A DNA stretch of 63,299 nt from Chitinophaga pinensis (GTDB lineage Bacteria > Bacteroidota > Bacteroidia > UBA7662). Below the pieces are notes generated by a model. The model saw only the letters and a list, made by a program, of their open reading frames with translations. It was not told the origin of the DNA and did not search any database. The translations under genes and the position numbers were made by a program. Shown here piece by piece: positions 8,667-27,537 of the stretch. Numbering within the stretch: the stretch's first letter is position 1; every line of letters begins with the position of its first letter. Where the stretch lies: the NCBI GenBank assembly GCA_945874665.1, contig CAMCHJ010000010.1:1-63299 (forward strand). Direction: 5' to 3'.

Positions 8667-9860
8667 ATGGATCTTCTGTCGAAAAGAATCACGGAACTCA
8701 CTGAGTCACAAACCCTCGCCATGGCAGCTCGCAGTCGCGAACTAGCCGCCAAAGGCATCGATGTTATCAATTTAAGTCTAGGCGAGCCCGATTTCCTCAC
8801 GCCCGAGCATGTACGAGAGGCGGGCAAGCAGGCTATTGACCAAGGTTACTCCTTTTACACACCGGTGGCAGGTTATCTGGAAACGCGGGAGGCCATTGTA
8901 ACCAAGTTGCAGCGCGACAACGGCTTGCACTACACGGCCGATCAAATTGTAACCAGCACGGGGGCTAAGCAATCCATCATCAACCTACTTTTGTGTTTGC
9001 TGGACCCTGGTGATGAAATCATCATTCCCACCCCCTATTGGGTAAGTTACCTCAGCATGGTACAATTAGCTGAAGGCAAAGCGGTATTGGTACCTGCCGG
9101 CGTAGATCAAGATTTCAAAATCACCCCTGCCCAACTTGAAGCCGCCATCACCCCCAAAACAAAAGCTTTTTTATTTTCCTCGCCTTGTAATCCTACTGGT
9201 TCGGTATATACAAGGAGTGAATTAGAAGGACTCACTGCTGTTTTTGAACGCCATCCCCAAATCACGGTCATTTCCGACGAGATTTACGAATACATCAATT
9301 TTGAAGGCAAGCACGAAAGCATCGCTGCCATCGGACAGATGATCAATCGCACCGTAGTGGTGAACGGGTTATCAAAGGGCTTTGCTATGACCGGCTGGCG
9401 TTTTGGCTACATTGCCGCACCTCTTGAAATTGCGAAAGCATGTACAAAACTGCAAGGGCAATTCACCAGTGCAACCTCTAGCATTACCCAAAGAGCTGCC
9501 ATTGCGGCGCTCACTGGTGATCTGGCGCCTACTTACGAAATGCGCGAAGCCTTTCGCAGGCGCCGAGCGCTGGTGTTAGATGGCTTAAGCAAAATTAAAG
9601 GACTGCGGTGCAATAAGCCCACTGGTGCTTTTTACGTTTTTCCAGATGTAAGCGGCTTTTTTGGCAAAAAATACGGCGACTACCTGATCAACAATGCCGA
9701 CGATTTGGCTACCTATCTATTGGTAGAAGGCCACGTAGCTGTGGTAACTGGCGAAGCATTTGGGGCGCCTGATTGCATTCGCTTATCCTACGCCACCAGC
9801 GACCAAAAGCTCAAAACCGCCATGGAGCGCATGCAAAAAACACTCGGGAACCTTCAATAA
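8667..9860 (+). CDS. PLP-dependent aminotransferase, class I (AspC-like)
   Basis: A fold-type I transaminase of 397 residues. Visible signatures are INLSLGEPDFLTPEH near the start, SSPCNPTGSVYTR, VISDEIYEY with the PLP-contacting Asp204, and VNGLSKGFAMTGWRFGY with the Schiff-base Lys237. This is the aspartate/aromatic aminotransferase Ib subgroup; aspartate with 2-oxoglutarate is the likeliest reaction, but specificity cannot be read from sequence. It is followed directly by the heptose kinase gene, with a stop and ATG separated by one base. Confidence 0.9.
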   Translation: MDLLSKRITELTESQTLAMAARSRELAAKGIDVINLSLGEPDFLTPEHVREAGKQAIDQGYSFYTPVAGYLETREAIVTKLQRDNGLHYTADQIVTSTGAKQSIINLLLCLLDPGDEIIIPTPYWVSYLSMVQLAEGKAVLVPAGVDQDFKITPAQLEAAITPKTKAFLFSSPCNPTGSVYTRSELEGLTAVFERHPQITVISDEIYEYINFEGKHESIAAIGQMINRTVVVNGLSKGFAMTGWRFGYIAAPLEIAKACTKLQGQFTSATSSITQRAAIAALTGDLAPTYEMREAFRRRRALVLDGLSKIKGLRCNKPTGAFYVFPDVSGFFGKKYGDYLINNADDLATYLLVEGHVAVVTGEAFGAPDCIRLSYATSDQKLKTAMERMQKTLGNLQ

Positions 9861-9861
9861 A

Positions 9862-10854
9862 ATGACAAAATCGGCTATAGAGGTCTTTTTTAAACAATTA
9901 CCACAACTCAAAGTGGTAGTGGTTGGGGATGTAATCGTAGATGCCTATGCTTGGGGATTTTCCGAACGGATGTCTCCCGAAGCTCCCGTGCCAGTTTTGC
10001 AAATCCGCGAAACCGAATACCGTTTAGGTGGTGCCGCCAACGTAGCCCTCAACTTGCAAGCGCTTGGTGTACAAACCGAGTTAATTAGCGTTTGTGGGGA
10101 TGATGCCACGGCGGCCCATTTATTCACCGGCTTAAAGCAAGCGAACCTGTCGTCAGACGGAATTGTACGCAGCCAAGATCGCCCTACCACACTCAAGACC
10201 CGCATCATGAGCGGCCCACAACAGCTGCTGCGTATTGATGAGGAAAGTTCGTTAGATGTGGATGCTGCTACTTCTGCTCAGTTGCTGCTTGCCGTTGAAA
10301 AGGGCTTGAAAGGTGCACAAGCATTAATTTTGCAAGATTACGACAAAGGAGTGCTCAGCAGCAGCAACATCGCTGCCATATTGGCTTTGGCTGATAAAGC
10401 TGGGGTTCCAGTGGCTGTAGACCCTAAAAAACAACACTTTTTTGACTATACAGGGGTGGCGTTGTTCAAGCCAAACCTCAAAGAATTGGCCGAAGGTTTG
10501 GGGTGCGAGCTTTCTAAAGACCACCTCCCTGCCGTAGAGCAGGCTGCAGCTGCGCTGCAACAACGCCTTGGCACCAAGGCCGTGCTGCTCACCTTGTCAG
10601 AAGCCGGCGTGATGTACAGCAGTGTGCATGAAAACGGCCGCCTTCCTGCACATCAGCGCAGCATTGTGGATGTATCCGGCGCAGGCGACACGGTTATTGC
10701 CGTAGCAGGTTGCTGCCTAGCCGCCAACTTGCCGCTGCCGATGTTAGCGGCTTTGTCGAACTTGGCTGGTGGACTTGTTTGCGAGTCATTAGGCGTAGTT
10801 CCAATAAAAAAAGATAAATTGCTGCACGAAGCGCTTTTAACAATCATAGCTTAA
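9862..10854 (+). CDS. rfaE1: D-glycero-beta-D-manno-heptose-7-phosphate kinase (RfaE1, PfkB family)
   Basis: Phosphorylates heptose 7-phosphate at C1 in the ADP-heptose pathway for lipopolysaccharide inner core. Features are the N-terminal VVVVGDVIVDAYAWG strand, sugar-binding APVPVLQIRETEYRLGGAANVA, and the PfkB signature VDVSGAGDTVIA with catalytic Asp276. At 330 residues it is only the kinase half: the nucleotidyltransferase domain fused to it in enterobacterial HldE is missing and should be encoded elsewhere. The frame is open further upstream inside the aminotransferase gene, but the ATG used gives the family's normal N-terminus. Confidence 0.9.
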   Translation: MTKSAIEVFFKQLPQLKVVVVGDVIVDAYAWGFSERMSPEAPVPVLQIRETEYRLGGAANVALNLQALGVQTELISVCGDDATAAHLFTGLKQANLSSDGIVRSQDRPTTLKTRIMSGPQQLLRIDEESSLDVDAATSAQLLLAVEKGLKGAQALILQDYDKGVLSSSNIAAILALADKAGVPVAVDPKKQHFFDYTGVALFKPNLKELAEGLGCELSKDHLPAVEQAAAALQQRLGTKAVLLTLSEAGVMYSSVHENGRLPAHQRSIVDVSGAGDTVIAVAGCCLAANLPLPMLAALSNLAGGLVCESLGVVPIKKDKLLHEALLTIIA

Positions 10855-24707: not shown

Positions 24708-25388
24708 TTAAGGCTTAAAACCCCCAAAATTCTGTGTGGCCAAGGCCATCGGAAGCGTTCTAAACTTGTACGGATCCTCTTCGATGGATACGCCACATCC
24801 CAAATGAGTAAAATTATTACTCAGTATATTTGCTTTGTGGTCTGGAGATTTCATCCACAACTTCACCGCTGCTCTGGCAAAATCACCATAGGTCAGCGGC
24901 TTGAGCGGCTTGCCATTCATGCCTAAAAAAGCAAAAGTGCCATCTGCATTCTTGGTTACGTCGTATTCGCCATTAGTCCCTGTTTTATAGGGAGGCATCT
25001 CCAAAATATTTTCGCCAGTAACGTTGAACTCGCCGCCTTTGTTGGCTATGCGTTGGTCTGGGGTGCGGTTTAGTTTATCGCTTTTGTTTACATGGTTAAA
25101 AAATCGCTTCTCACGCATTTCATCGCTGTGAAACTCAGCTGCCTTCTCCAAAACAGCATCATACCGCAAAGGCTCCAGTTTCTTTTTAATACGCGCCTCG
25201 TTGGTGGCAAAGAAAACAGCTGCATTGAGCAAGGCGATGTTCGGTTTTTCTACATCCAAGTTTGCCTTCACTGCATCGGTATTAAAAAAACTATCAACGC
25301 TGAGCTCGGTATACCAACTTTCGTTAAACGATTGGGCTTGTGCCGCCACAGTCAGGAGCGTACTAACAGCTAAAAGAAAGTATTTCAT
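24708..25388 (-). CDS. Secreted CAP (SCP/PR1) domain protein
   Basis: A 226-residue exported protein. The signal peptide MKYFLLAVSTLLTVAAQAQ fixes the ATG at 25388, although the frame is open further upstream. The CAP fold is seen in NEARIKKKLEPLRYDAVLEKAAEFHSD (first helix and His), HVNKSDKLNRTPDQRI, GENILEMPP and WMKSPDHKANILSNNFTHLGCGV, where the second His and Cys lie. Bacterial CAP proteins are extracellular with largely unknown ligands. There is no T9SS tail, so it is probably periplasmic. Confidence 0.9.
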   Translation of the reverse strand: MKYFLLAVSTLLTVAAQAQSFNESWYTELSVDSFFNTDAVKANLDVEKPNIALLNAAVFFATNEARIKKKLEPLRYDAVLEKAAEFHSDEMREKRFFNHVNKSDKLNRTPDQRIANKGGEFNVTGENILEMPPYKTGTNGEYDVTKNADGTFAFLGMNGKPLKPLTYGDFARAAVKLWMKSPDHKANILSNNFTHLGCGVSIEEDPYKFRTLPMALATQNFGGFKP

Positions 25389-25490
25389 GGATAAGGAGAT
25401 GAATGAAAAGGAATAAAGTTGCCGGCTAAACTGCTGCCTCCGATGGCAACAGCTAAGGTGATGCAAAATACTGTTTTTTAGGTAATGAAA

Positions 25491-25522
25491 AATGCCCGAT
25501 TTGCATTTGCAAACCGGGCATT
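25491..25522 (-). terminator. Intrinsic terminator of the cytochrome c gene
   Basis: A long stem AATGCCCG.TTTGCA/TGCAAA.CGGGCATT followed on the minus strand by TTTTTC, about 20 bases after the cytochrome stop. Confidence 0.8.
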
Positions 25523-25542
25523 TATATCAGGTGTTGGATAGA

Positions 25543-26007
25543 TTACCCTTGCGCAGCTAATGTGCGAACGTAGTTAATCAAATGCCAGCCATCTTCGTCG
25601 CTAATGCCGTAAGTTGAAATTTTCAACATGGCACCTCTGCCGTTGAGCAGCTTCCAATGAAGTTCACCATCGGTTTGCGCTGGCGTTTTGTCTACTAAGT
25701 TGGCTGCTTTTACCGCCATGCCCGCAGGCACCTCGGCTTTGCCGTTTTCACCGTGACAACTTATGCAGTATTGCGTAAAAATGCCTTTTCCTTTTTCAAT
25801 TGAAGCGGCATCCGCAGTAAAAGGATTGGCAACTGCCTTTGCTTCTGCTGGGGCTACCCATGCTTCGGCCATTGGCTCTTCCGCAACTGGAGCAGCTTCG
25901 GCAGTTTGACTGGTTGTTTCTTCAGCCGTTTCGCTGCCGCCACAAGCTACCATTACACTTACACCAGCTAACATGGCCAGGCTCAGTATCCATTTGTTTG
26001 TGTTCAT
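25543..26007 (-). CDS. Monohaem cytochrome c lipoprotein
   Basis: An exported lipoprotein (MNTNKWILSLAMLAGVSVMV then ACGG) with a Glu/Ala/Pro-rich linker of about 50 residues. A class I cytochrome domain follows with one haem-binding CISCH, and a later GAMLKIS that can supply the axial Met. At 154 residues it is a typical Bacteroidota electron-carrier lipoprotein, held in the membrane by its lipid and reaching out on the linker. It is divergent from the cco remnant, so it may once have served that oxidase (inference). Confidence 0.9.
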   Translation of the reverse strand: MNTNKWILSLAMLAGVSVMVACGGSETAEETTSQTAEAAPVAEEPMAEAWVAPAEAKAVANPFTADAASIEKGKGIFTQYCISCHGENGKAEVPAGMAVKAANLVDKTPAQTDGELHWKLLNGRGAMLKISTYGISDEDGWHLINYVRTLAAQG

Positions 26008-26037
26008 CTTTAGAATCGTTTTGTTATTTGTATATGA

Positions 26038-26045
26038 CAAAGTTA
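26038..26045 (-). promoter_or_regulatory. -7 box of the cytochrome c gene
   Basis: TAACTTTG on the minus strand matches TAnnTTTG exactly, 30 bases before the ATG. No convincing -33 element is seen. Confidence 0.45.
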
Positions 26046-26173
26046 TGACATAAAAGTTTGCGTCCTACTGTTTGACAACCAAAAAATGACATATCTCTGT
26101 AAGTTACAGAAAATATTTAGATATATTTATCTTTATATTTAAATATCTTTTCTTTCTTTGCATAACCATTTAA

Positions 26174-26548
26174 ATGCCGTTCAGCACTACATATACCTCT
26201 GAGCAAGCACATACTTGCAACCATTGCGGCGATGCTTGCGACGGATCAATCCTGAATACACAATAGCAAGCATTTTGCCGCCGTTTTACTCGTGGGCGAC
26301 CCCACCAGCTGGCCATATTTATGGCGGCTTTTGGTTTGGGTACCATTCCTGCTTTATTAGCGGTAGCCCTGCTCGACCGCAAAGTACTGCCCAGCCTCAC
26401 CCCCTATTTCAAAAAATTCAGCACGGCTTTGGTTGTGATTTTAGCAATGATCTTCATCCTGCGCGGCTTGGGCTTAGGCATTCCGTATTTGAGTCCAAAT
26501 ACCGCCACTTTTTACCAAGAGGAAGCTGCGGCACCTGCTTGTCACTGA
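26174..26548 (+). pseudogene. Fused remnant: start of CcoI/FixI copper ATPase joined to end of SafE/TauE-like protein
   Basis: From the ATG the frame reads MPFSTTYTSEQAHTCNHCGD and then ACDGSILNTQ, stop (TAG 26264-26266), QAFCRR. The HCGDAC..QAFC pattern is the N-terminal zinc/copper motif of CcoI/FixI ATPases. Without changing frame it continues TRGRPHQLAIFMAAFGLGTI, then a second membrane helix VVILAMIFILRGLGLGIP, and ends in CH. This is the C-terminal part of the SafE/TauE-like protein that usually closes Bacteroidota cco clusters. The genes normally between them (ccoS, N/O, P, G, H) are absent. The junction lies around 26270-26290. It is probably a deletion scar; a 75-residue two-helix piece starting at 26321 could still be translated. 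Confidence 0.75.
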
Positions 26549-26554
26549 GCCAGC

Positions 26555-26620
26555 AGTCAGGTAAACACGAAACGCTGTTCGCCCGGAAATTGAACCGGGA
26601 GCGTTTGAATACTACTGACT
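26555..26620. repeat. Nested inverted repeat at the end of pyrB
   Basis: Three nested arm pairs: AGTCAG (26555-26560)/CTGACT (26615-26620), AACGCT (26571-26576)/AGCGTT (26600-26605) and CCCGG (26582-26586)/CCGGG (26595-26599). The outer arm includes the last base of the pyrB stop. There is no T run, so it is not a standard terminator. It may protect the mRNA end or be a leftover of the deletion next to it. Confidence 0.45.
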
Positions 26621-27537
26621 TAATTAGCTAATAAATAAAGCGCAGCCATGCGTACGGCCACCCCGTTTTCTACTTGGTTGAGGATGATGGATTGGCTGGA
26701 ATCGGCCACGTCGGAGTTTAACTCTACCCCGCGGTTGATAGGACCTGGGTGCATGATGGTAATGTCGCGGCCTACAGCTTCGAGTAATTTGCGATTGATA
26801 CCAAAGTGCAGGGTGTATTCGCGCAGGGATGGGAAATATCGGGTGGCTTGGCGTTCGAGCTGAATGCGCAGCACATTCGCCACATCGCACCATTCTAGAG
26901 CTTCGCGTACGTTGTGGGATACTTGTACACCGAGTTCTGCGATGTATTTTGGCATGAGCGTGGTTGGGCCACACACCATCACCTCCGCGCCCAACTTTTG
27001 AAGGCAAAAAATATTGGAGAGAGCTACACGCGAATGCAGGATATCGCCGATGATAGCAACCTTGAGGCCTGCAACCTTGCCGTATTTTTCGCGGATCGAG
27101 AAGGCGTCGAGCAGGGCTTGGGTGGGATGTTCGTGGGCGCCATCCCCAGCGTTGATGACTTTGGCGTCGATGTTGCGCGCTAAAAACTCGCAGGCGCCAG
27201 CATTGGCATGGCGCATCACCACCATGTCGACTTTCATAGCCAAGATGTTTTTAACCGTGTCGATGAGCGTTTCACCTTTCGAAACCGAACTGCCCGAGGC
27301 CGAAAAATTGATTACATCGGCAGAGAGGCGCTTTTCGGCGAGCTCAAACGACAATCGGGTACGGGTTGAATTCTCAAAAAAGACATTGGCAATCGTAATA
27401 TCACGCAACGAAGGCACCTTTTTAATGGGTCGGTTGATGACTTCCTTAAAATTATCGGCGGTATTAAAAATGGTTTCGATGTCAGCAGTGCTGAGCTCTT
27501 TGATGCTGATCAGGTGTTTGGTACTTAGTGCTGACAT
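26620..27537 (-). CDS. pyrB: Aspartate carbamoyltransferase catalytic subunit
   Basis: Makes carbamoyl aspartate, the committed step of pyrimidine synthesis. The carbamoyl-phosphate motif FENSTRTRLSFE, the SSVSKGETLIDT loop, MRHANAGACEFLA, GDGAHEHPTQALLD and HPGPINRGVEL are all present in a 305-residue protein of normal length. No regulatory PyrI subunit is adjacent. It follows pyrR with only one base between the genes, so the two are cotranscribed and pyrimidine-regulated expression is likely. Confidence 0.97.
   Translation of the reverse strand: MSALSTKHLISIKELSTADIETIFNTADNFKEVINRPIKKVPSLRDITIANVFFENSTRTRLSFELAEKRLSADVINFSASGSSVSKGETLIDTVKNILAMKVDMVVMRHANAGACEFLARNIDAKVINAGDGAHEHPTQALLDAFSIREKYGKVAGLKVAIIGDILHSRVALSNIFCLQKLGAEVMVCGPTTLMPKYIAELGVQVSHNVREALEWCDVANVLRIQLERQATRYFPSLREYTLHFGINRKLLEAVGRDITIMHPGPINRGVELNSDVADSSQSIILNQVENGVAVRMAALYLLAN

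Follow-up and report, generated by a model that had tools for sequence, protein, structure and literature searches.

Genes and remnants at the locus

The window, a stretch of 63,299 nucleotides in which no RNA matches were found with Rfam, is contig C10 of a draft assembly (G000; 2.29 Mb, 35 contigs, 96% complete and 4% missing) that is probably metagenome-derived and is the single genome for its species. Two other genomes of the same genus were compared with it, G001 and G002, the latter further off within the genus. A short interval of the window, bordered by a cytochrome c gene and pyrB, holds the features listed in Table 1.

Table 1. Features from the divergent cytochrome c gene to pyrB (window coordinates)
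Feature	Position	Strand	Remarks
Cytochrome c gene, lipoprotein-like, divergent	25543..26005	-	Intact open reading frame; CXXCH motif CISCH; PF13442, E 1.8e-10; left border
Old intergenic/promoter stretch upstream of ccoI	26060..26173	+	Alignable with G001 and G002; within the 24715-26278 block
ccoI remnant	26174..26278	+	Codons 1-35 of about 805; TAG at 26264-26266
Deletion join	26275..26283	+	Position ambiguous within TTGCCGCC; flanks aligned with G001 and G002
safE (DsbD_2 family) remnant	26283..26548	+	About the last 87 of 233 codons; open frame from 26321 to TGA
Second, smaller loss	26549..26619	.	Missing here: a 149-150-codon frame that separates safE from pyrB in G001 and G002
pyrB (aspartate carbamoyltransferase)	26620..27537	-	Right border of the lost cluster

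The frame that opens with the ATG at 26174 translates as MPFSTTYTSEQAHTCNHCGDACDGSILNTQ, a TAG stop, QAFC, a short run, and then MAAFGLGTIPALLAVALLDRKVLPSLTPYFKKFSTALVVILAMIFILRGLGLGIPYLSPNTATFYQEEAAAPACH, which includes MAAFGLGTIP...PACH and the final stop. The sequence-only reading had taken the HCGDAC..QAFC part of this frame for the N-terminus of CcoI, interrupted by an in-frame TAG, and both points hold: the head aligns with residues 1-37 of G001 CcoI (68% identity, E 1.2e-11) with one TAG inside the match, in place of AAA in G001 and CAG in G002. The head alone (30 codons) had no Pfam or NCBIfam match. The tail, described in that reading as SafE/TauE-like, is 96% identical to the SafE protein of G001 over 75 amino acids, but the profile that it matches is PF13386 DsbD_2 (E 3.6e-6, above the cut-off), the family commonly annotated as 'sulfite exporter TauE/SafE'. 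The DNA matches of head and tail exceeded those of all 200 shuffles (83 versus at most 31, and 235 versus at most 29, respectively). Further disabling changes within the remnants are the TAG codon and a loss of 1 bp at about 26310, and the remaining fragments of ccoI and safE are presumably non-functional. The neighbouring cytochrome c gene is whole, as had been noted.

The intact cluster in genomes of the same genus

In G001, the corresponding interval from the divergent cytochrome c gene to pyrB is occupied by a complete ccoI-S-N/O-P-G-H-safE cluster, and G002 has the same gene arrangement with collinear flanks; the cytochrome c orthologue lies directly upstream of ccoI in both. This interval of G001 encodes CcoI (805 amino acids), CcoS (a small frame), CcoN/O (a single protein of 703 amino acids), CcoP (185), CcoG (470), CcoH (146) and SafE (233), plus a protein of 150 amino acids, and the Pfam matches of its genes are a P-type ATPase with a PF12156 head, COX1 with FixO, FixP, FixG, FixH and DsbD_2. 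The remnants in the window correspond to the two outer ends of this cluster (CcoI residues 1-35 and SafE residues about 147-233), which keep their order and orientation and meet at one join. Both relatives thereby confirm the gene order from which the sequence-only reading had argued, with the breaks falling at the two remnants.

In a BLASTN comparison with the corresponding locus of G001 (L022), window positions 24715-26278 align with 13814-12274 at 75% identity and 26292-26551 with 4432-4172; the two blocks are collinear, and pyrB, pyrR and the genes beyond follow collinearly downstream of the second. Window positions 26278 and 26292 thus abut bases 12274 and 4432 of L022, and 7,835 bp of G001 are absent from the window, which supports the proposal of a deletion of several kilobases between the ends. 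The locus resembles the Bacteroidota cbb3 cluster of L022 in gene order and flanks and keeps both of its ends; unlike L022, it is without everything between them and can have no oxidase function left. A DNA search of the rest of the 96% complete G000 assembly detected none of the 7.9 kb of cluster sequence.

The frame missing next to pyrB is fast-evolving (the G001 and G002 copies are 28% identical, E 1e-14), and its G001 copy has no Pfam match. The pyrB gene itself adjoins the cluster, or what is left of it, in G001 and G002, and also in G004, G007, G009 and G011, which sample the sister genus g3.

The deletion join and the reading frames

The window reads CAAGCATTTTGCCGCCGTTTTACTCGTGGGCGACCCC across the join. 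The ccoI side in the relatives is CAAGCTTTTTGCTGTCAG (G001) and CAAGTATTTTGCTGCCAA (G002), and the safE side is GCCATTGCGGCGGCATTGATGGTAGGCGACCCA (G001) and GCCATTGCCTCTGCCTTGTTGGTGGGCGATCCC (G002), so that the ccoI side runs TTGCTG(C/T)C and the safE side ATTGC(C/G)... at this point. The join, expected from the sequence alone at 26270-26290, falls within that interval (Table 1), and the junction stretch occurs once.

What does not stand is the description of the two genes as fused in frame. Because the crossover lies within TTGCCGCC, safE homology begins about 40 bp before the in-frame stretch recognized earlier, and in a different frame: the safE frame at the join is +1 relative to that of ccoI and encodes AAVLLVGDPTS, matching AALMVGDPTG of G001. 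One base pair is missing between 26310 and 26311 in comparison with both G001 and G002, which brings the tail into frame with ccoI, so the in-frame appearance is an accident of that later loss. A functional in-frame ccoI-safE fusion gene is rejected on account of the TAG before the join and the frame offset at the join.

G001 and G002, relatives at 70-78% DNA identity, suggest the word TTGCYGCC (about 8 bp) at both ends of the deleted segment, and the exact common word at the join spot in either of them is shorter than 8 bp. Plausibly, then, ccoI and safE shared about 8 bp at the crossover before the deletion. A single deletion would have taken ccoI from codon 36, ccoS, the fused ccoN/O gene, ccoP, ccoG, ccoH and the first 60% of safE/DsbD_2, and may have arisen by illegitimate recombination or replication slippage between such short direct repeats; the nonsense change and the 1-bp loss would have accumulated afterwards, or partly before.

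Deletions bounded by short repeats are known in reductive evolution (PMC3637634). The case of Streptococcus agalactiae ST260-261 (PMC3637634) is similar in that several genes were deleted after a function came free of constraint, with short repeats at the ends, as is suggested for G000. The genome of G000 is likewise smaller than those of its relatives (2.3 Mb versus 3.1 and 2.8 Mb). In contrast to that case, one complete respiratory module is affected here, lost repeatedly at one locus, and a host-adaptation setting is not known.

Age of the deletion and alternative explanations

Over 75 codons, the safE tail differs from that of G001 by pN 0.027 and pS 0.746, and one of its three amino acid differences falls on the window's branch when G002 serves as the outgroup. 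On the assumption that no selection has acted on the remnant since the deletion, its nonsynonymous change over that time amounts to about 0.006 per site (upper 95% limit by Poisson, 0.033). Neighbouring genes of G000 and G001 differ by dS 0.68-1.23, roughly half of which belongs to the G000 branch. Since the tail shows almost no amino acid change and yet saturated silent change, the deletion is probably recent and, for a selection-free remnant, would fall late on the G000 branch, roughly in its last tenth. The best explanation of positions 26174-26548 is that a single recent deletion of about 7.8 kb removed the cbb3 cluster and left them as its scar, a reading to which we assign a probability of roughly 94% and which concerns a deletion seen in one genome. 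The join would be a base-level record of a whole respiratory enzyme lost in a single step, with the loss indicated as recent.

The same pattern of substitution would be expected had selection continued to act on the remnant, in which case a short gene of 75 codons, running open from the ATG at 26321 to its stop and encoding the last helices and CH end of SafE, might be expressed and maintained. This is less likely than a recent deletion, and as an account of the locus very improbable: a recent deletion predicts the same pN and pS, both lineages having been under selection earlier, whereas the product would be a membrane protein without its first 146 or so residues. The AAVLLVGDPTS segment just before the ATG is, moreover, severed by the 1-bp loss, the homologous tail in G004 has decayed with stops, and G011 retains nothing of safE. 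About equally improbable is that the cluster is in fact intact and that its two ends were wrongly brought together in assembly, an error for which the draft state of the genome, with its 35 contigs, and the nearly unchanged protein sequence of the safE tail might speak. An in-silico join would not, however, produce the lesions present in both remnants; the break points share at most about 8 bp, far under the word length of an assembler; and the cluster is on no other contig. The contig is also collinear with G001 on both sides, the junction sequence was found once, and relatives have lost the same cluster with different break points. Removal of the cluster by several smaller deletions deserves more weight than either, although it too is unlikely. 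The adjoining second loss, of the 150-codon frame by pyrB, would suit it, as would a TAG that predated the deletion, but there is one visible join only, with recognizable coding sequence on either side of it, and, with the safE tail so little changed, there was hardly time for a long series of steps.

Terminal oxidases retained by the genome

The sequence-only reading had supposed that the cell would rely on another terminal oxidase, and the gene content of G000 agrees. There is no ccoN or ccoO elsewhere in the assembly, whose single heme-copper oxidase by the COX1 profile lies at C13:25117-26550. From its motifs (FLGHPEVY and HDTYFVVAHFH) we take this oxidase to be of the A type (aa3-type); its neighbours are a gene for a CoxB-cytochrome c fusion and a CtaA-like gene. 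Subunit I of cytochrome bd (PF01654) was not found in G000 in a search whose positive controls matched, CcoG had no match in the assembly, and a CcoI query recovered no full ccoI but only the 37-codon head and an unrelated copper ATPase at 29% identity.

The high oxygen affinity of cbb3-type oxidases serves respiration in microoxic niches (PMC8267372). Given that affinity, and judging from gene content, G000 would respire oxygen via the aa3-type oxidase only and would have lost high-affinity (microoxic) respiration. The ATPase recovered with CcoI is a second heavy-metal P-type ATPase (G000:C7:54400-56295, 29% identical to CcoI), which could serve either to export copper or to deliver it to the aa3-type oxidase.

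Parallel losses in the family

Within the sister genus, the cluster is present in G007 and G009, where the cytochrome c gene borders it on the side of ccoI and pyrB on the side of safE; both assemblies are broken within the cluster, so that each end is seen on a separate contig. In G011 (L127, about 9899-10405; G011:C22), 117 bp separate the cytochrome c gene from pyrB, with no cco gene between them. In G004 (L128, about 9844-10368; G004:C9), a cytochrome c gene without its front runs into a decayed safE tail, which matches that of G009 at 72% over 231 nt (E 9e-30) and contains several stops; the join lies within the short shared word CNATGCCCG, a case similar to that of G000, and in both of the joins that can be read the breaks thus seem to fall on short direct repeats. 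Both genomes have thus lost the cbb3 cluster from the same position as G000, between hppA/cytochrome c and pyrB, but the break points differ: in G004 the front of the cytochrome c gene is gone and the decayed safE tail remains, whereas G011 has its cytochrome c gene and no safE.

A concatenated protein tree groups G011 with the intact G009 (support 0.948) and places G004 outside G007, G009 and G011 (0.997), a topology on which a single loss in a common ancestor of G004 and G011 is rejected. Given these placements, the losses in G000, G004 and G011 are best read as three separate events. Across the family, with A and C types assigned by match score and frame length, cbb3 oxidases are patchy and an A-type oxidase is nearly universal; by the same assignment, the g2 genomes are mostly without cbb3.

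The mechanism is one of ordinary gene loss or reductive evolution, and the parallel losses are the more interesting aspect. Together with the intact genomes of the same genus, the two parallel losses make a small replicated natural experiment on giving up high-affinity oxygen respiration. A literature search, partial in its coverage, found no prior report of this loss. Tentatively, and with less confidence than an even chance would warrant, repeated deletion of the cbb3 module between cytochrome c and pyrB in this family of small-genome Bacteroidota, independently at least three times and in one case very recently, with the aa3-type oxidase retained each time, may mean that losing microoxic respiration is a selected, repeatable step into a permanently oxic niche, of which the join in the window would be a snapshot just after the event.

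Two minor observations concern the wider set of genomes. G003, of the same family (1.7 Mb, 98% complete), had no match to COX1 (PF00115) or to cytochrome bd (PF01654), in which its relatives differ; it is possibly without any known terminal oxidase, or its assembly has a gap. Bacteroidota-like pyrB genes, 76-77% identical to that of the window, occur in L036 (titled Polynucleobacter meluiroseus) and L059 (titled Candidatus Planktophila lacus), which look like mis-binned or mis-titled contigs.
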